Shown in pieces: positions 9,305 to 30,580 of a stretch of 64,000 bases of DNA. Position numbers and translations under genes: made by a program. Location: contig NZ_JAHOPH010000021.1 of assembly GCF_019798055.1 (NCBI RefSeq), positions 1-64,000 on the forward strand, in the 5' to 3' direction. This DNA is from Salsipaludibacter albus (lineage in GTDB: Bacteria > Actinomycetota > Nitriliruptoria > Nitriliruptorales > Nitriliruptoraceae). The notes beneath the pieces were generated by a model that was not told where the DNA came from, did not search any database, and saw only the letters and a list, made by a program, of their open reading frames with translations. Each line of letters opens with the position of its first letter. The stretch's first letter is position 1.

Positions 9305-11053
9305 GTGTCAACGACCGTTCCGACCTCGACGTCGACACCTGCGTCACCCCGCCTGCACCAGTTCGACGCGCTCAGTCCGGCCCAGCGGGCGACCGCGCTG
9401 GACCGGATGCGCACCGAGACCTTCGACGTGGTGGTGATCGGGGGCGGCGTCACCGGCGCGGGCGCGGCGCTGGACGCGGCGACCCGCGGCCTGAGTGTCG
9501 CCCTGGTCGAGATGCGCGACCTCGCAGCCGGGACGTCGTCGCGGTCGTCCAAGCTGATCCACGGGGGCCTGCGCTACCTCGAACAGCTCGACTTCGGGCT
9601 GGTCCGCGAGGCGCTGTCCGAGCGTGGCCGGCTCCTGACCGACCTCGCCCCCCACCTGGTCAAGCCGGTGTCGTTCCTGTACCCGCTGACCCATGCCGTG
9701 TGGGAGCGCCCCTACGTGACGGCCGGAGTCACCCTCTACGACCAGCTGGGCGGCGCCCGCAACCTCCCCCGTCACCAACAGCTGTCCCGTCGTGGCGCCC
9801 TGCGGTTGGCACCCGGGCTGCGTCGCACCGCCCTGGTCGGCGCGATCCGCTACTGGGACGCCCAGGTCGACGACGCCCGCCACACCATGGAGATCGCCCG
9901 CACTGCGGTGCGCTACGGGGCGGCGGTCGCCACGTCGGCCCGGGTCGTCGACGTGCTGCGCGAAGGCGAACGGGTGGCCGGCGTGCGCATCGACGACCTC
10001 GAGGGCGGCGACACCATCGACGTGCGGGGTCGCCAGGTCATCAACGCGACCGGGGTGTGGACCGACGACATCCAGGAGATGGTGGGCCGCGGCCGCATCC
10101 AGGTCCGGGCGTCCAAGGGGATCCACCTCGTCGTCCCGCGCGACCGCTTCCCGTCCGACAGCGGGATCATCCTGCGGACCGAGACGTCGGTGCTGTTCAT
10201 CATCCCGTGGGGTCGCCACTGGCTGATCGGCACCACCGACACCGACTGGGAGCTCGCCAAGTCGCACCCGGCCGCCTCGGCCACCGACATCCAGTACCTG
10301 CTGGACCGCACCAACCGGTTCCTGCGCACGCCACTGACCCACGACGACGTCGAGGGCGTGTACGCCGGGCTGCGACCGTTGCTGTCCGGCGAGTCCGAGG
10401 ACACCTCGCAGCTGTCCCGCGAACACGCCGTCGCCTCGACCGTGGCCGGCATGGTCACGATCGCGGGGGGCAAGTACACCACCTACCGCGTGATGGCGGC
10501 CGACGCGGTCGATGCCGCGTCCCACGGACTGGCCGAGAAGGTGCCGGACTCGATCACCGAACGGGTGCCGCTGCTCGGCGCGACCGGCTACCACGCGATG
10601 TGGAACCAGCGCCACGACCTCGCGGCCGAGTCCGGGCTGCACGTGGCCCGCATCGAGCACCTGCTCGACCGCTACGGCTCCCGCACGACGGAGCTGCTGG
10701 ACCTGGTCGCCGACGACCCCGAGCTGGCCACGCCACTGCCCAAGGCCGACGACTACCTCGAGGTCGAGGCGCACTACGCCGCCAGCCACGAGGGTGCGCT
10801 CCACCTCGACGACGTGCTGACCCGGCGGACCCGGATCTCGATCGAGTCGTGGGACCGCGGCCTGGCCGCGGCCGCCCCGGTCGCCCGGCGGATGGCCGAG
10901 GTCCTGGACTGGGACGACGAGACCCGTGAGCGCGAGCTCGCCCACTACCGGGGCCGCGTGACCGCGGAGCGGGACTCGCAGGCGATGCCCGACGACCGGA
11001 CCGCCGACGCCGCCCGGATGGGTGCCCCGGACGTGCGGACCGGGGCGGCCTGA
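9305..11053 (+). CDS. glpD: FAD-dependent glycerol-3-phosphate dehydrogenase
   Basis: GlpD oxidises sn-glycerol 3-phosphate to dihydroxyacetone phosphate at the membrane and feeds electrons to quinone. The 582-residue product shows the FAD-binding GGGVTG near 46-51, the GTSSRSSKLIHGGLRYLE signature, the substrate-domain segment GTTDTDWE, AGGKYTTYR, and a C-terminal helical domain. The start chosen is GTG 9305, which has GGGAG eight bases upstream. A GTG at 9290 adds five residues and lacks a ribosome binding site. The downstream SURF1 gene begins at or just after the glpD stop codon, so the two are likely cotranscribed, although glycerol oxidation and oxidase assembly are only loosely linked. 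Confidence 0.92.
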   Translation: MSTTVPTSTSTPASPRLHQFDALSPAQRATALDRMRTETFDVVVIGGGVTGAGAALDAATRGLSVALVEMRDLAAGTSSRSSKLIHGGLRYLEQLDFGLVREALSERGRLLTDLAPHLVKPVSFLYPLTHAVWERPYVTAGVTLYDQLGGARNLPRHQQLSRRGALRLAPGLRRTALVGAIRYWDAQVDDARHTMEIARTAVRYGAAVATSARVVDVLREGERVAGVRIDDLEGGDTIDVRGRQVINATGVWTDDIQEMVGRGRIQVRASKGIHLVVPRDRFPSDSGIILRTETSVLFIIPWGRHWLIGTTDTDWELAKSHPAASATDIQYLLDRTNRFLRTPLTHDDVEGVYAGLRPLLSGESEDTSQLSREHAVASTVAGMVTIAGGKYTTYRVMAADAVDAASHGLAEKVPDSITERVPLLGATGYHAMWNQRHDLAAESGLHVARIEHLLDRYGSRTTELLDLVADDPELATPLPKADDYLEVEAHYAASHEGALHLDDVLTRRTRISIESWDRGLAAAAPVARRMAEVLDWDDETRERELAHYRGRVTAERDSQAMPDDRTADAARMGAPDVRTGAA

Positions 11054-23303: not shown

Positions 23304-23356
23304 TTCTCGGCGGATTCGTCGTGAACGCTCGACAGGTGGTCGCGGGTGTGGCATTC

Positions 23357-23391
23357 TCCCACCATGCGGGACGGTTCCGTATGGTGGAACC
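23357..23391. promoter_or_regulatory. Tandem palindromic operator over the -10 of the methyltransferase operon
   Basis: Site 2 (23373-23391) is GGTTCC-N7-GGAACC, a perfect palindrome with a 7-nt spacer. That spacer contains TATGGT (23380-23385), a good -10 candidate. Site 1 (23357-23371) is TCCC-N7-GGGA. Its reverse complement matches most of site 2, including GCATGGTGG versus GTATGGTGG. The centres are 18 bp apart. TTCC/GGAA arms are of the kind bound by IclR-family proteins, and an IclR gene ends this cluster. Binding by that protein is inference. Confidence 0.6.
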
Positions 23392-23444
23392 CGTTGCTCA
23401 TGGAGCAACGCCACCGCCCGCCAGTACGAACGCACGAGGCCAGC

Positions 23445-24176
<732 letters not shown>

Positions 24177-24178
24177 AC

Positions 24179-24802
24179 GTGGCCGCGCCCGCGCCCCCTC
24201 GGCTGCTCGTCCTGGCCTGCGGGGCGCTCGGCCAGGAGCTGCGCTGGATCCTGGACACCAACGGGATGGACCACGTCGACCTGCAGTTCCTCACGGCCGA
24301 CCTGCACAACCGACCCCGTGACATCCCGGCGGCGGTCGACGCCCGACTGGGCGAGATCGGCGCGGACTACGACGAGGTGCTGGTGGGCTATGCCGACTGC
24401 GGCACCGGCGGCGCCCTCGCACCGGTGCTCGAGCGACACGGCGCGACCATGCTCGGCGGCTCGCACTGCTACGAGTTCTTGGCAGGGTCGGAGCGATTCG
24501 CCGACCTGCACGACGCGGAGCCCGGGACCTTCTACCTCACCGACTACCTCCTACGACAGTTCGACCGCCTGGTCTGGCGCGGGCTGGGCCTGGACCGCCA
24601 CCCGCAGCTGCGCGACGACTACTTCGGCAACTACACCCGGCTGTGCTGGCTCGCCCAGTTCCCCACCGACGACCTGCACCTGCGCGCCCAGGAGGCCGCG
24701 GACCGGCTGGGGCTACGACTTGAGCGCCACGACGTCGGCACGGGCGACCTCGGCGGCCAGGTCGTCGCGGCCCGTGCCCGGCTCCCGGTGCTGGCCCCGT
24801 GA
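24179..24802 (+). CDS. DUF1638 protein of the methyltransferase operon
   Basis: The 207-residue product matches DUF1638. Visible features are LLVLACGALGQEL at the N-terminus, a YADCGTGG segment, GGSHCYEFLAG, and TFYLTDYLLRQFDRLVWRGLGLD. Conserved cysteines (CG, DCG, HCYE) suggest metal or cofactor binding. Genes of this family occur beside methylamine and betaine methyltransferase genes in methanogens and bacteria, but their task is not known. It starts with GTG 2 bp after the corrinoid gene and overlaps the next gene by 4 bp (GTGA), so it is certainly part of this operon. A role in corrinoid handling is a guess from context. Confidence 0.85.
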   Translation: MAAPAPPRLLVLACGALGQELRWILDTNGMDHVDLQFLTADLHNRPRDIPAAVDARLGEIGADYDEVLVGYADCGTGGALAPVLERHGATMLGGSHCYEFLAGSERFADLHDAEPGTFYLTDYLLRQFDRLVWRGLGLDRHPQLRDDYFGNYTRLCWLAQFPTDDLHLRAQEAADRLGLRLERHDVGTGDLGGQVVAARARLPVLAP

Positions 24803-25230
24803 GTCCCCGTGCCCCCCGTCGCCGTGGCCGGTCCACCGGGCCGACCCTGACCTCGATCTGGTGGCGTGACATCCCGGTCCAGGTCCGGGCGACCGACCCA
24901 GGCGACGACGGCGGCGAACCGGTCCGGGCCGAACTGCCCGCGCGCTTCGCCCATGCCGTGGACCGAGCCGCGATGGGCGCGGGGCTGGCCGGCACCGACG
25001 CCTACCTCGAGCAGTGGGACCGACGCACCCGGCCGTGTGGGCCGGACCTGGCCGCGGAGGTGGAGGCGGAGGTCGAGCGACTCGTGGCCGCCCACTCCCG
25101 CGACGTGCTGTCCGCACTGGTGGACAACGATGCGCGCACCCCTGCGGACGACTCCTCCCCCACCTCCGAGACCGCCACGACCGGCGCGACTCCCGTCCCA
25201 TCCGAGCCCACCGACGAGGTGCCGACGTGA
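24799..25230 (+). CDS. 'Virulence factor' domain protein (PF13769-like)
   Basis: The 143-residue product shows the short domain misnamed 'virulence factor': LTSIWWRDIPVQVRA, ELPARFAHAVDRAAM, and DAYLEQWDRR. A helical segment follows, then a Ser/Thr/Pro-rich acidic tail of about 35 residues. The domain recurs beside MttB-type methyltransferase clusters, mostly in Alphaproteobacteria, and has no known function. There is no sign of secretion or toxicity. It overlaps both neighbours by 4 bp, so it should be made in step with them. It may be a small subunit or assembly factor of the methyl-transfer system; that is inference. Confidence 0.8.
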   Translation: MSPRAPRRRGRSTGPTLTSIWWRDIPVQVRATDPGDDGGEPVRAELPARFAHAVDRAAMGAGLAGTDAYLEQWDRRTRPCGPDLAAEVEAEVERLVAAHSRDVLSALVDNDARTPADDSSPTSETATTGATPVPSEPTDEVPT

Positions 25231-26147
25231 CCGAGACCGTGATCAGTTCCCCCACGCGCGAGGTGGTGATCGGGCACGACCGAGCCTTCACCGTCATCGG
25301 CGAGCGCATCAACCCGACCGGCCGCAAGGTGCTGGCAGCCGAGATGCAGGCGGGTGACTTCTCCCGCGTCGAGGCCGACGCCGTGGCGCAGGTCGAGGCC
25401 GGTGCGCACATGCTCGACGTCAACGCCGGCATCCCGCTGGCCGACGAGCCCGCGATCCTGGCCCAGACCGTCAAGCTCGTCCAGTCACTGGTCGACGTGC
25501 CGTTGTCGATCGACTCGTCGATCGTGGCCGCGCTCGAGGCTGGCCTGGCGGTCTACGAGGGCAAGGCGCTGGTCAACTCGGTGACCGGCGAGGAGGAGCG
25601 ACTCGAGCAGGTCCTCCCCCTGGTCGCCAAGCACGGCGCGGCGGTCATCGCCATCACCAACGACGAGACCGGCATCTCGGAGGACCCCGACGTCCGTTTC
25701 GAGGTGGCCCGCACGATCGTGAACCGGGCCGCCGACCACGGCATCCCGGCCGCCGACGTCGTGGTCGACCCGCTGGTCATGCCGATCGGCGCGATGCGTG
25801 GCGCCGGACGACAGGTGTTCACCCTCGTGCGCCGGCTGCGTGACGAGCTGGGCGTCAACACGACCTGCGGTGCGTCCAACGTGTCGTTCGGACTGCCCAA
25901 CCGGCCGGGCATCAACGCCGCGTTCCTGGCCATGGCGATCAGCAACGGGCTGAGCTCGGCGATCACCAACCCGATCGAGGGTGAGATCCGCTCGGCCGTC
26001 ATGGCGGCCGACGTCCTGGCCGGCAACGACCCGGACTGTGCCGCCTGGATCGCCTCGCACCGTGATCCCGGCGGCACGCAGGGAGCCGCACGAGGACGTC
26101 GCGGCGGTCGTCGTGGCCGGCGGGGCGGGAGTCGGGACGACGGATGA
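25227..26147 (+). CDS. Corrinoid:tetrahydrofolate methyltransferase (MtgA/AcsE-like)
   Basis: Enzymes of this pterin-binding TIM-barrel family move a methyl group between a corrinoid protein and tetrahydrofolate. The 306-residue product has VIGERINPTGRK near the start, DVNAGIP, the substrate-pocket DSS in PLSIDSSI, NSVTGEEERL, an ITNDETGI segment, DPLVMPIGA, and GASNVSFGLPNRPGIN. All of these are features of methyltetrahydrofolate methyltransferases. The last 27 residues form a Gly/Arg-rich basic tail not expected in the family. It starts with GTG overlapping the upstream stop, and its own stop overlaps the activator gene. In this operon it is the likely acceptor step, producing methyl-tetrahydrofolate. 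Confidence 0.9.
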   Translation: MTETVISSPTREVVIGHDRAFTVIGERINPTGRKVLAAEMQAGDFSRVEADAVAQVEAGAHMLDVNAGIPLADEPAILAQTVKLVQSLVDVPLSIDSSIVAALEAGLAVYEGKALVNSVTGEEERLEQVLPLVAKHGAAVIAITNDETGISEDPDVRFEVARTIVNRAADHGIPAADVVVDPLVMPIGAMRGAGRQVFTLVRRLRDELGVNTTCGASNVSFGLPNRPGINAAFLAMAISNGLSSAITNPIEGEIRSAVMAADVLAGNDPDCAAWIASHRDPGGTQGAARGRRGGRRGRRGGSRDDG

Positions 26148-28183
26148 GTCCGACCGGCAGCGACCGGGTCGCGGTCACGTTCACCCCGTCGGGACGACGG
26201 GGTGAGCTGGCCGCGGGCACGACCGTGCTGGACGCGGCCCGCGAGCTGGGGGTCGACCTGGACTCGGTGTGCGGCGGTCGTGGCATCTGCGGCCGGTGCC
26301 AGGTCGCCGTGGGGTCGCGTCCCGGCACCGACGCGCGTGCCGACCGGCTCAGCGCACCCGGCCCGACCGAGGCCACCTACGCCGACAGTGCGATGGGTGC
26401 CCGTCGTCCGCTGGAAGGTCGCCGGCTGGGGTGCGCGACCGCGATCCACGACGACGTCGTACTGGACGTCCCCGCCGCCAGCCAGGTGCACCGCCAGGTG
26501 GTGCGCAAGGAGGTCGGTGACCTGCGGGTGACCCTCGACCCGGTCGTGCGACCGTTCTACGTCGAGGTCCCCGCCTCCGGGATGGACGAGCGGGTGGGCG
26601 AATGGCAGGCACTGCAGGCCGCGCTGGCCGACCAGTGGGAGCTGGACGAGGTCTCGATCGGCGTGTCGGCACTGGCCGACCTGCAGGCGGCACTTGAGGA
26701 CGGCGACCGTGCCGTGACCGTGGCCGTGCGCACCGACGACGGCGAGCTGGTGGCGGCGTGGCCCGGGTTCGTCGACCGCCTGGTCGGGGTCGCGGTCGAC
26801 GTCGGGTCCACCACGATCGCCGGCCACCTGTGCGACCTCACCACCGGCCGCGTGCTGGCGTCCGCCGGTCGGATGAACCCCCAGATCGCCTTCGGCGAGG
26901 ACCTGATGAGCCGGGTCAGCCACGTGATGATGCACGACGACGGCCAGCGCCAGCTGACGACGGCCGTGCGCACGGCGCTGGCCGAGCTCGTCGCCGAGCT
27001 GTGCGACGAGGCAGGCGTGACCACGGACCGGGTCCTGGACGTCGTGGCGGTCGGCAACCCCATCATGCACCACCTGCTGTACGGGCTCGACCCACGACCA
27101 CTGGGTGCAGCGCCCTTCACCCTGGCAACGACCGACGCGGTGCAGGTCACGGCCCACGAGCTGGACCTGCACGACCTGCCGCGGGGCGCACGGGTCTGGA
27201 GCCCGCCGTGCGTCGCGGGCCACATCGGTGCCGACGCGATGTCGATGACGCTGGCGGACGGCCTGCACCGGCGAGACGAGCTCAGCCTGCTGATCGACGT
27301 CGGCACCAACGCCGAGATCGTGCTGGGCAGCGCCGAGCGTGTGTGGGCGGCGTCGTCACCGACCGGGCCGGCGTTCGAGGGGGCCCAGATCTCGTCCGGC
27401 CAGCGGGCTGCTCCCGGGGCGATCGAGCGGGTCCGCATCGACCCCCAGACCCTCGTGCCCCGTGTCCGGGTGATCGGGTCGGACCTGTGGTCCGACGAGT
27501 CCGGGTTCGCCGACGCGGTCGCCGCCACGGGGGTCACCGGCATCTGCGGCTCCGGCATCATCGAGGTCCTCGCCGAGCTGCACCTCGCGGGCGTGATCAC
27601 GGTGGACGGCACGATCGTGGACCCGACCGGGACCGGCGCCGCCGGCCGCATCGTCACCCGCGGCCGCACCCTGGCCTACCGCCTCCACGGCGACATCGAG
27701 GTGACCCAGAACGACGTCCGCGCCATCCAGCTGGCGAAGGCGGCACTGCAGGCCGGCTGCCGGCTGCTGATGGCCCACGCGGGCGTCGGGGCGGTGGACC
27801 GGATCCGACTGGCGGGCGCCTTCGGCAGCCACATCGACCCGTTGCGGGCCATGGTCCTGGGACTGGTCCCGGACTGTGACCCGGCCGCCGTCAGCGCGAT
27901 CGGCAACGCGGCCGGCACGGGTGCGGTCCAGGCCCTGCTGTCCCGGGCCGCCCGCGACGAGGTCACCGCCCTCGCCGGCCGGGTCGTCAAGGTCGAGACC
28001 GCGACCGAGGCAGCCTTCCAGGACGAGTTCGTCGGGGCCATGGGCCTGCCCCACACCTCGGCGCCCTACCCCCGGCTCGAAGCCGTGGTGCCACTCCCCC
28101 GGTCGCGGCCGTCGCATGGCGCGGGCGCGGGGGCCGACACCGCGCCCCGTCGCCGGCGACGCCGCCGCGCGACCACGCCCTGA
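26144..28183 (+). CDS. RamA-like [2Fe-2S]/ASKHA reductive activator of corrinoid proteins
   Basis: Corrinoid methyl carriers are inactivated when cobalt is oxidised to Co(II). RamA/RACo-type proteins reduce it back with ATP. The 679-residue product has an N-terminal [2Fe-2S] ferredoxin domain with ligands C43, C49, C52 and C97 (VCGGRGICGRC and LGCA), a linker domain, and an actin-like ATPase domain (DUF4445). The ATPase shows VAVDVGSTTIAG, LLIDVGTNAEIVL, CGSGIIEVLAEL and LAGAFGSHIDP. The C-terminus ends in a run of seven arginines. The ATG overlaps the stop of the upstream methyltransferase gene. The electron donor is not identifiable in the window. Confidence 0.92.
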   Translation: MSPTGSDRVAVTFTPSGRRGELAAGTTVLDAARELGVDLDSVCGGRGICGRCQVAVGSRPGTDARADRLSAPGPTEATYADSAMGARRPLEGRRLGCATAIHDDVVLDVPAASQVHRQVVRKEVGDLRVTLDPVVRPFYVEVPASGMDERVGEWQALQAALADQWELDEVSIGVSALADLQAALEDGDRAVTVAVRTDDGELVAAWPGFVDRLVGVAVDVGSTTIAGHLCDLTTGRVLASAGRMNPQIAFGEDLMSRVSHVMMHDDGQRQLTTAVRTALAELVAELCDEAGVTTDRVLDVVAVGNPIMHHLLYGLDPRPLGAAPFTLATTDAVQVTAHELDLHDLPRGARVWSPPCVAGHIGADAMSMTLADGLHRRDELSLLIDVGTNAEIVLGSAERVWAASSPTGPAFEGAQISSGQRAAPGAIERVRIDPQTLVPRVRVIGSDLWSDESGFADAVAATGVTGICGSGIIEVLAELHLAGVITVDGTIVDPTGTGAAGRIVTRGRTLAYRLHGDIEVTQNDVRAIQLAKAALQAGCRLLMAHAGVGAVDRIRLAGAFGSHIDPLRAMVLGLVPDCDPAAVSAIGNAAGTGAVQALLSRAARDEVTALAGRVVKVETATEAAFQDEFVGAMGLPHTSAPYPRLEAVVPLPRSRPSHGAGAGADTAPRRRRRRRATTP

Positions 28184-28223
28184 CCGCACCGATCCCCCGA
28201 GCCCGACCGAACCGGAGCCGACC

Positions 28224-29759
28224 ATGCCACGCCGAACCCGCCCCGGTGGCGGACGTGCCGCCCGACAGGCCGCCCGCACGGCCGACGCCGTCGCGAGCGT
28301 CCCGTACCTGACCCGCTCACTCGACCCGGTCGAGGTGCTGTCCACCGAGGGCCTCGAACAGATCGAGCACCATGCCGACCTGTTGCTGGCCGAGGTCGGC
28401 ATCGAGATCCACGACGACCCCGAGGCCCTCCAGATCTTCGCCGACGGAGGGGCCGACGTCGACGGCACCCGGGTGCGCTTCCCCGACGGCATGGCGCGCG
28501 AGCTGGTGACCGCGACCGCGCCGTCGTCGTTCACCCAGCACGCCCGCAACCCCGACCGCAGCGTGGTGATCGGCGACCCGCACATGGTGCTGGCGCCGGC
28601 CTACGGACCACCGTTCGTGTCCGACCTCGACCATGGCCGGCGCTACGCGACGCTCGAGGACTTCCACAACTTCGTCAAGCTCGCCTGGCTCTCGCCCGCG
28701 CTGCACCACTCCGGCGGGACGGTGTGCGAGCCGGTCGACCTGCCGGTCAACAAGCGTCACCTCGACATGGTCGCCGCCCACGTCCGGCTCTCCGACAAGC
28801 CGTTCATGGGCTCGGTGACCGCACCCGAGCGCGCCCAGGACACCGTCGAGCTGGCCAGGATCGTGTTCGGCGCCGACCGGCTCGAGACCGACACCGTGCT
28901 GCTGTCGCTGTGCAACGCCAACTCGCCGATGTCGTGGGACCGGGCGATGCTGGGCTCGGCGAAGGTCTACGCCGAGAACAACCAGGCCTGCATCATCACC
29001 CCGTTCATGGTGGCCGGCGCCATGTCGCCGGTGACGGTGGCGGCGACCGCGACCCAGACGCTGGCCGAGGCGCTGGCCGGCATGGCCTTCACCCAGCTGG
29101 TCCGGCCGGGCGCACCGGTGGTGTTCGGCTCGTTCGCCCCGTCGATGTCGATGCAGACCGGCGCGCCGACCTTCGGCACGCCCGAGCCTCAGTTGGTGCT
29201 GTTCCTGGTCGCCGCACTGGCCCGACGGCTGGGCGTCCCGTTCCGCTCGGGCGGGAACTTCACCTCGTCGAAGACGCTGGACTACCAGGCCGCCTACGAG
29301 TCGGCCATCAGCTTCCTCGCGACGATGCAGGCCGGGGTGAACTTCGTGCTGCACAGCGCCGGGTGGCTCGAGGGCGGCCTGGTCATGGGCTACGAGAAGT
29401 TCGTGCTCGACGCGGACCAGGCGGGCATGGTCCCGCGGTACGCGGCGGGCGTGGCCACCGACGACAACGCGATGGCGCTGGACGCCATGCGCAGCCATCC
29501 CCCCGGTGAGCACTGGCTCGGCCACCCGCACACGCTGGCCAACTTCGAGTCGGCGTTCTGGGTCTCGGCGATGGCCAACCACGCCAGCTTCGAGCAGTGG
29601 GAAGCCGATGGCGCGCTGGGTGCCGAGCAGCGGGCCAACGCCCGTTGGAAGGAACTGCTCGCCGGCTACGAGGCCCCACCGCTGGACGACGCGATCGACG
29701 CCGAGATGACCGAGTGGATCAGCCGCCGCAAGGCCGAGTTCCCCGACTCGGACGTCTGA
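28224..29759 (+). CDS. MttB-family methyltransferase without pyrrolysine (MtgB-like)
   Basis: MttB enzymes strip a methyl group from a methylated amine onto a corrinoid protein. The 511-residue product has the family core: VGIEIHDDPEALQIF, APAYGPPFVSDLDHGRR, SGGTVCEPVDLP, TPFMVAGAMSPVTVA, FGSFAPSMSMQTGAP, and LHSAGWLEGGLVMGYEKFVLDADQ. The archaeal trimethylamine enzyme needs a pyrrolysine encoded by an in-frame TAG. This frame has no internal stop, so it belongs to the non-pyrrolysine group, whose characterised members use glycine betaine, proline betaine or carnitine. The exact substrate is unknown. The N-terminus is Arg-rich. The ATG follows a 40-bp gap after the activator gene, with GGAG seven bases before it. 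Confidence 0.93.
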   Translation: MPRRTRPGGGRAARQAARTADAVASVPYLTRSLDPVEVLSTEGLEQIEHHADLLLAEVGIEIHDDPEALQIFADGGADVDGTRVRFPDGMARELVTATAPSSFTQHARNPDRSVVIGDPHMVLAPAYGPPFVSDLDHGRRYATLEDFHNFVKLAWLSPALHHSGGTVCEPVDLPVNKRHLDMVAAHVRLSDKPFMGSVTAPERAQDTVELARIVFGADRLETDTVLLSLCNANSPMSWDRAMLGSAKVYAENNQACIITPFMVAGAMSPVTVAATATQTLAEALAGMAFTQLVRPGAPVVFGSFAPSMSMQTGAPTFGTPEPQLVLFLVAALARRLGVPFRSGGNFTSSKTLDYQAAYESAISFLATMQAGVNFVLHSAGWLEGGLVMGYEKFVLDADQAGMVPRYAAGVATDDNAMALDAMRSHPPGEHWLGHPHTLANFESAFWVSAMANHASFEQWEADGALGAEQRANARWKELLAGYEAPPLDDAIDAEMTEWISRRKAEFPDSDV

Positions 29760-29821: not shown

Positions 29822-30580
29822 ATGCCCCGCACCCACGCCCCGCCCACCGTGCAGTCGGTGGATCGTGCGTTCGCGATCCTCGACCTGGTCGCGTCGGGGT
29901 CGCGGACCTTCAGCGCGGTCGCCGGACAGGTCGACCTGCCCCGCTCCACCGTGTCCCGGCTGCTCACCACGCTCGAGGCCCTCCGGGCGATCGAGCGGAC
30001 TCCCGACGGCTACCACATCGGCACCCGGGTGTCGGACCTGGTCCCGGTCCTGCACGGGTGGACGTCACTGCGGACGCTGGTCCACCCCCACCTCCAGTCG
30101 CTGGCCGAGCGCCTCGGCGAGGCCACGGGGCTGGCCGTCCCCGACGGGGACGGCGTGCGCTACGTCAGCCATGTCGAGAGCCCCAACCCGGTCCAGGTCC
30201 GCGACTACACCAACCTCGTCACCCCGGCCCACATCGGCTCGCCGGGCCTGGCGATGATGTCGCGGTGGGACCCCGAGCGCGTCGACGCGTACCTGGCACG
30301 GCCCCTGGACCAGCACACGGCGACCACGGTCGTCGATCCCGACGCGATCCGCGCACGCCTGGTGACGATCCGACGGAAGGGCTACGCGGTCGTGCGCGAC
30401 GAGTTCGCCGACGGGATCTCGTCGGTGGCGGCCTGCCTGCTGGACCACGACGGGGTCCTGATGGGCACGATCCACGCCCACGGGCCGACCTACCGGTTCC
30501 CGGCCGAGGGCATGGCGGACGCCATCGGCCTGACCATCGCCCACACGTCCCGGGCGATCCTGGCCCGGGCAGCCGCCTGA
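29822..30580 (+). CDS. IclR-family transcriptional regulator
   Basis: The 252-residue product has an N-terminal winged helix (residues 8-65, with SVDRAFAILDLVASG and LPRSTVSRLLTTLEAL) and a C-terminal IclR effector domain. The effector domain shows HLQSLAERLGEATGLA, HIGSPGLAMMS, GYAVVRDEFADGISSVAA, and a terminal helix. IclR proteins bind small carbon compounds and act as repressors or activators. It lies 62 bp after the MttB-family gene in the same direction, so it is probably in the operon and controls it. Likely binding sites are the two palindromes at 23357-23391. The effector may be the amine substrate; this is inference. Confidence 0.9.
   Translation: MPRTHAPPTVQSVDRAFAILDLVASGSRTFSAVAGQVDLPRSTVSRLLTTLEALRAIERTPDGYHIGTRVSDLVPVLHGWTSLRTLVHPHLQSLAERLGEATGLAVPDGDGVRYVSHVESPNPVQVRDYTNLVTPAHIGSPGLAMMSRWDPERVDAYLARPLDQHTATTVVDPDAIRARLVTIRRKGYAVVRDEFADGISSVAACLLDHDGVLMGTIHAHGPTYRFPAEGMADAIGLTIAHTSRAILARAAA

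Follow-up and report, generated by a model that had tools for sequence, protein, structure and literature searches.

Two neighbouring palindromes before a corrinoid methyltransferase operon of Salsipaludibacter albus, op1 and op2 (Table 1), are predicted from comparison of sequences to form a tandem operator, very probably that of the operon's own IclR-type repressor. This reading is drawn from the recurrence of the pair, equally spaced, before the same operon and other one-carbon genes in distant bacteria carrying the repressor. The analysis started from the window, i.e. the whole stretch of 64,000 nucleotides presented above, and was extended to the rest of the genome and to related loci.

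Table 1. Features of the predicted op1/op2 operator region and of the operon that follows it.
Feature	Positions	Strand	Basis or remark
Probable -35, TCGACA	23329-23334	+	Inferred; 17 bp from CATTCT; best promoter score
Probable -10, CATTCT	23352-23357	+	Inferred by comparison; overlaps the first two bases of op1
op1, first (weaker) predicted operator palindrome, CTCCCACCATGCGGGAC	23356-23372, centre 23364	.	Second-best motif match; tandem in relatives
op2, second (strong) predicted operator palindrome, 17-bp core GTTCCGTATGGTGGAAC	23374-23390, centre 23382	.	Motif match; genome uniqueness
Perfect 8-bp inverted repeat, CGTTGCTC-ATG-GAGCAACG	23392-23410	.	Begins just after op2; not claimed as operator
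Corrinoid (B12-binding) protein, MtgC-like	23445-24176, alternative in-frame ATG 23400	+	PF02310, PF02607; relatives 67-86% identical
DUF1638 protein	24179-24802	+	PF07796
PF13769 'Virulence_fact' domain protein	24799-25230	+	Name historical only
Methyltetrahydrofolate:corrinoid methyltransferase, MtgD-like	25227-26147, start approximate	+	PF00809; NF005719 above cut-off
RamA/RACo-like corrinoid reductive activase	26144-28183	+	PF14574, PF17651
MttB-superfamily methyltransferase, MtgB-like	28215-29759, start approximate	+	PF06253; PDB 4yyc, 9yce
IclR-family regulator, proposed op1/op2 ligand	29828-30580, start approximate	+	PF09339, PF01614

The exact palindrome GGTTCC-N7-GGAACC with TATGGT in its spacer, from which the sequence-only reading had started, is confirmed at 23373-23391. 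Read directly, GGTTCC occupies 23373-23378, GTATGGT 23379-23385 and GGAACC 23386-23391, i.e. the core of op2 plus its outer bases. In the whole genome (4,246,067 bases), this is the sole exact copy, and the tighter pattern GTTCCRYNNNRYGGAAC again gives one exact match, at op2. As base composition predicts, by our own estimate, ~0.5 exact copies of such a 12-letter palindrome per genome, the lone palindrome is unremarkable, and the weight therefore lies on the pair and on its conservation. The centres of op1 and op2 are exactly 18 bp apart, with 1 bp separating the two 17-mers, and stand 81 and 63 nt upstream of ATG 23445 (36 and 18 nt from ATG 23400). A degenerate, inverted copy of the palindrome had been claimed at this distance upstream of op2; the spacing holds to the base pair, whereas the term 'inverted' is a mere matter of reading, both elements being quasi-palindromes.

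Both sites can be compared with a published operator class. The survey of Suvorova and Gelfand 2021 (PMC8222616) describes an IclR group-1 motif, GKTYCRYW3-4RYGRAMC, and tandem arrangements with a spacing of 18-22 nt for 94 orthologous groups, together with a GTT-11-AAC subgroup (GTTYCRYW3RYGRAAC) reported from Actinobacteria and Chloroflexi. By direct reading, op2 matches the consensus GKTYCRYW3RYGRAMC at 16 of 17 letters and op1 at 13 of 17. Their 18-bp spacing lies at the lower limit of the published range and would set the dimers on different helix faces.

Scored as two 17-mers at 18-bp spacing (maximum 20), the op1/op2 pair reaches 17, the runner-up in the 64 kb, both strands considered, being at 14. 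A symmetrised matrix built on 14 other loci, with the window left out (consensus GTTCCGCAATGCGGAAC), ranks op2 first (23.6 bits) and op1 second (9.5 bits) among the ~64,000 17-mers of the 64 kb. The pair sums to 33.1, and the next pair, itself containing op2, to 11.8. Nevertheless op1 is weak, as the corresponding values in the training loci are 12.8-22.6 bits. With the same matrix, no operator was found upstream of the oxidoreductase, DUF3105, MttB and IclR genes that the window contains. The thresholds of the dual-site score were set after the first loci had been inspected; independent testing was provided by the leave-window-out matrix and by the scan of 396 genomes described below.

For the comparison of homologous operons, 91 loci were used: the window, 10 relatives whose corrinoid proteins are 67-84% identical, and 80 genome contigs, several of the genomes being drafts. 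Nine of these loci, window included, score at least 16 of 20, all others scoring at most 14, and 0 of 2730 first-order Markov shuffles attained 16. The nine belong to Acidimicrobiia, Chloroflexota and unplaced genomes. The 18-bp tandem precedes the same corrinoid gene in ~15 other loci of Actinomycetota and Chloroflexota and is absent from the proteobacterial loci. An IclR gene is near in eight of the nine tandem loci, mostly divergent and adjacent (L041 and L060 included), and the tandem is found in 8/10 loci with a nearby IclR versus 1/81 without (L106; Fisher p = 5e-9). L052 has an adjacent IclR gene, yet no clear 18-bp tandem. In G262, a genome of the window's class, the corrinoid protein is 86% identical and the gene order is that of the window, with the IclR gene last (52% identical); its tandem, ATGCCACCTGGTAGAAC-A-GTACCGCATAGCGGAAC, keeps the 18-bp spacing and was missed by the genome-scan pattern. 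A palindrome search before homologous operons, which the sequence-only reading had proposed as a check, recovered the tandem in other genomes, most of which carry orthologous IclRs, usually encoded next to it and in one case unlinked. A similar tandem with 21-bp spacing was seen at L190 (G140, 10850-10887), where it precedes an IclR gene that is co-oriented with the corrinoid gene and immediately upstream of it.

When 396 genomes of the window's phylum were scanned blind with a 34-letter tandem pattern (≤3 mismatches), 8 genomes matched; the reversed control pattern gave 2 matches. Eight distinct sites were found besides that of the window. Five stand immediately upstream of the corrinoid operon (L140, L141, L142, L143 and L147) and two before fhs, one of which (L144) simply precedes the gene while the other (L148) is flanked by divergent genes for formate-tetrahydrofolate ligase (fhs) and formate dehydrogenase alpha (fdhA). 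The eighth site (L145) falls inside a reading frame and seems to be a chance match. In genomes reached via other loci, the pattern marks mtgB (L164, site at 1501, in the genome of L035), formate dehydrogenase (L161) and fhs (L159), with a further tandem among such one-carbon gene sites (mtgB, fhs, formate dehydrogenase set) at L152. Judged by these gene contexts, the tandem is a mark of betaine demethylation and of the oxidation of methyl groups, not of random genes. The regulator probably governs both betaine demethylation and oxidation of the methyl groups set free, because the same operator precedes mtgB, fhs and formate dehydrogenase in other genomes. Elsewhere in the window's genome (G000, contig C67, 107276-107403; L208 and L209), 2-3 GTTCC-N7-GGAAC-like sites occur in a 2-kb stretch, a tannase/feruloyl-esterase-like gene following two of them, and they probably constitute another IclR-type regulon.

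All 13 IclRs linked to the site or to an mtgC operon, that of the window included, fall together with three others into one clade with support 100/100. The three members with no known site are L126, L127 and L129, and the grouping that excludes them is weakly supported (48/84). When the 396 genomes were searched with an IclR probe, the top five matches came from precisely the other five genomes that have the operon site; G262 was next. This probe has 96 residues, the first 70 from L165 and the last 26 added ad hoc from no real protein; the 70 residues of L165 alone recover the same genes in the genomes tried. In G289, which carries the site without an adjacent IclR gene, an ortholog (75% identical in the HTH region) is found on another contig. 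In the draft genome G422 (L106), the site is present, and the IclRs found are all distant ones. The sequence-only reading had suggested an operator placed to block RNA polymerase and bound by the IclR of the cluster end; the published motif class and spacing, the tandem accompanying orthologous IclRs and the clade formed by these regulators all argue for it.

As to the promoter, a -10 at CATTCT and a start near 23364, within op1, are probable from the comparison with relatives. TCGACA-N17-CATTCT has the best promoter score of the region (9.0); a sigma-70 consensus scan at a threshold of 9/12 reported no promoter. With numbering from the start of op1 (+1), TANNNT is found at offset -3 in 6/14 related loci (~4 independent cases, as two pairs are close relatives), and the closest relative, G262, has TAGAAT at this offset with CTCGAC at the same distance as in the window. 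In other relatives, the -10 is slightly farther upstream, as in L038 with TAGTCT at -8 and TGGACA-N17, and also in L041, L074 and L039. The -10 had previously been assigned to TATGGT inside op2, where the repressor would cover it directly while op1 would cover the -35 region. Although TATGGT is fair as a -10 (6.8 bits alone) and would leave a leader of normal length to ATG 23445, this assignment is unlikely and finds no support in the relatives: none of the 14 has TANNNT in its register (+25), whereas it stands immediately upstream of op1 in the 6/14 and in G262. Moreover, the -35 that would accompany TATGGT is poor (CTCCCA), for a total of 6.7, and the spacer letters are accounted for by the operator's own symmetric core.

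With the -10 before op1, op1 and op2 would span from the -10 edge to ~+27, which is a repressor's position. In the absence of the inducer, IclR would bind both 17-bp sites, as two dimers or as one tetramer across 35 bp. Once bound, it would cover the 3' end of the -10, the start region and the first transcribed bases, so that RNA polymerase would be unable to open or leave the promoter. The inducer would release IclR; candidates are glycine betaine, another betaine akin to it and a product formed further down the pathway, while the sequence-only reading had named amines as candidates. Since the IclR gene is within the operon it controls, the regulator would also limit its own synthesis.

Some IclR proteins are activators, e.g. 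PcaU and PobR, and a tandem through which IclR recruits or repositions RNA polymerase would have such precedents. This is improbable here, as the tandem, in the window as in G262 and most relatives, runs into the probable -10 or lies downstream of it, an arrangement typical of repression. The motif class is common to many IclR proteins and the genome holds a second IclR at C79:111947 (L138), so that a paralog encoded elsewhere could be imagined at the site instead of the operon's IclR; such an exchange of partners is very improbable, because the C79 protein falls outside the clade and the proteins that accompany the site, usually from an adjacent gene, are orthologs of the operon's IclR. Finally, chance palindromes without function would agree with a copy number close to the compositional expectation, but they are scarcely credible in view of a tandem with an exact 18-bp spacing, conserved ahead of this operon in numerous genomes from two phyla, at a score that the shuffles never reach. 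Repression by the operon's own IclR is the reading retained.

The inverted repeat following op2 was considered as a third operator and rejected, as it scores 2.7 bits (rank 87 of ~64,000) and is not conserved. Its core GTTGCTC-N3-GAGCAAC occurs once in the genome, its right half is ATGGAGCAA, which starts the corrinoid gene in G262, and the whole-leader folding z-score is -1.0. The repeat could be a leader hairpin hiding the in-frame ATG 23400, or could be due to chance. The corrinoid gene has two candidate starts, ATG 23400, which gives MEQ as in G262, and ATG 23445, which has the better ribosome-binding site.

The operon matches by its gene set the aerobic betaine demethylase system MtgBCD, and a betaine substrate is predicted from similarity. 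The MttB-family protein resembles the proteins of PDB 9yce and 4yyc (glycine betaine methyltransferase). The MtgC-like protein scores 205 bits against NF047996, under the cut-off of 370. The MttB-family protein does not qualify as a pyrrolysine MttB, as the frame is open without in-frame TAG and the TIGR02369 score is 255 bits versus a cut-off of 525. DUF1638 proteins are implicated in B12 reactivation according to PMC5764234 and PMC12478193. The PF13769 protein is present in most related loci, from Actinomycetota to Proteobacteria, and Phaeobacter mutant data exist for its neighbour DUF1638. The IclR gene, last of the cluster, encodes an HTH domain (PF09339) and an effector domain (PF01614). 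Upstream of the operon and on the same strand are genes for an FdhF/YdeP-type oxidoreductase and a DUF3105 protein. In a relative of the same family (L117, 10058-11134), a ProV-like ABC transporter ATPase gene is divergent from the corrinoid operon, a hint of a betaine substrate.

The window's own family (L006-L015) has kept the operon, and the 18-bp tandem is absent there. The regulator thus appears to have been swapped around a conserved operon in the nearest relatives of the window's organism, since these are without the tandem and have other candidate operators. L116 has a divergent LysR gene with TATTAG-type sequences as candidate operators, and L008, L009 and L012 have GTTGY-N7-GCAAC candidate sites at the promoter. 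The candidates of these family members (L006-L014, L015) lie 60-160 nt upstream of the corrinoid gene, and GTTGTGC...GCACAAC palindromes are also found over the promoter.

Taken as a whole, these comparisons lean towards an IclR repressor, for which 'MtgR' is a candidate name, that would use a rigid 18-bp tandem to coordinate betaine demethylation and methyl oxidation (mtgC operon, mtgB, fhs and formate dehydrogenase) in Actinomycetota and Chloroflexota alike, and that would have been exchanged in close relatives, where a LysR gene with TATTAG-type sites or GTTGY-N7-GCAAC sites are seen in its place. Aerobic corrinoid-dependent demethylation of glycine betaine has been described only recently. 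A conserved operator with its cognate repressor would give a handle on when soil and water bacteria turn this pathway on. The operator allows targets to be found from sequence alone, as with fhs and formate dehydrogenase, and the inducer becomes testable.

Among known pathways, the operon shares a corrinoid protein, a MeTHF methyltransferase, an MttB-family protein, RamA and DUF1638 with MtgBCD(E) and with the split methionine synthase, as described in PMC12478193 and PMC5764234, respectively. It differs from them in being one compact actinobacterial operon that includes an IclR gene, and the window's genome also has a full-length MetH-like gene (1206-residue frame, C45). In the open-access papers covered, no regulator of mtgBCD was found described, and none mentions IclR and MttB together.

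Among named regulators, the nearest NCBIfam models to the window's IclR are BhcR (127 bits, cut-off 350) and PcaR/PcaU/PobR (103 bits, cut-off 285), with scores far under the cut-offs and other pathways. TtgV and BlcR have ligands and operator sequences other than those proposed here. As solved relatives that bind as tetramers (PDB 2xro and 3mq0), they are nevertheless examples of an IclR protein on a multi-half-site operator covering the promoter, although their similarity to the window's IclR is low (E 1e-16 and 8e-8). The closest likeness in operator design is with the group-1 tandem operators, with which op1/op2 share the motif fit, the 18-nt tandem and a linked IclR with HTH and effector domains; spacing is mainly 19-21 in that survey, whereas it is 18 in almost every case for sites of the window's type, and the accessible part of the survey has no mention of corrinoid methyltransferase operons as IclR targets (PMC8222616). 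As far as these comparisons reach, op1 and op2 would represent an IclR group-1 tandem operator, an already known class, placed before a target that appears to be new.
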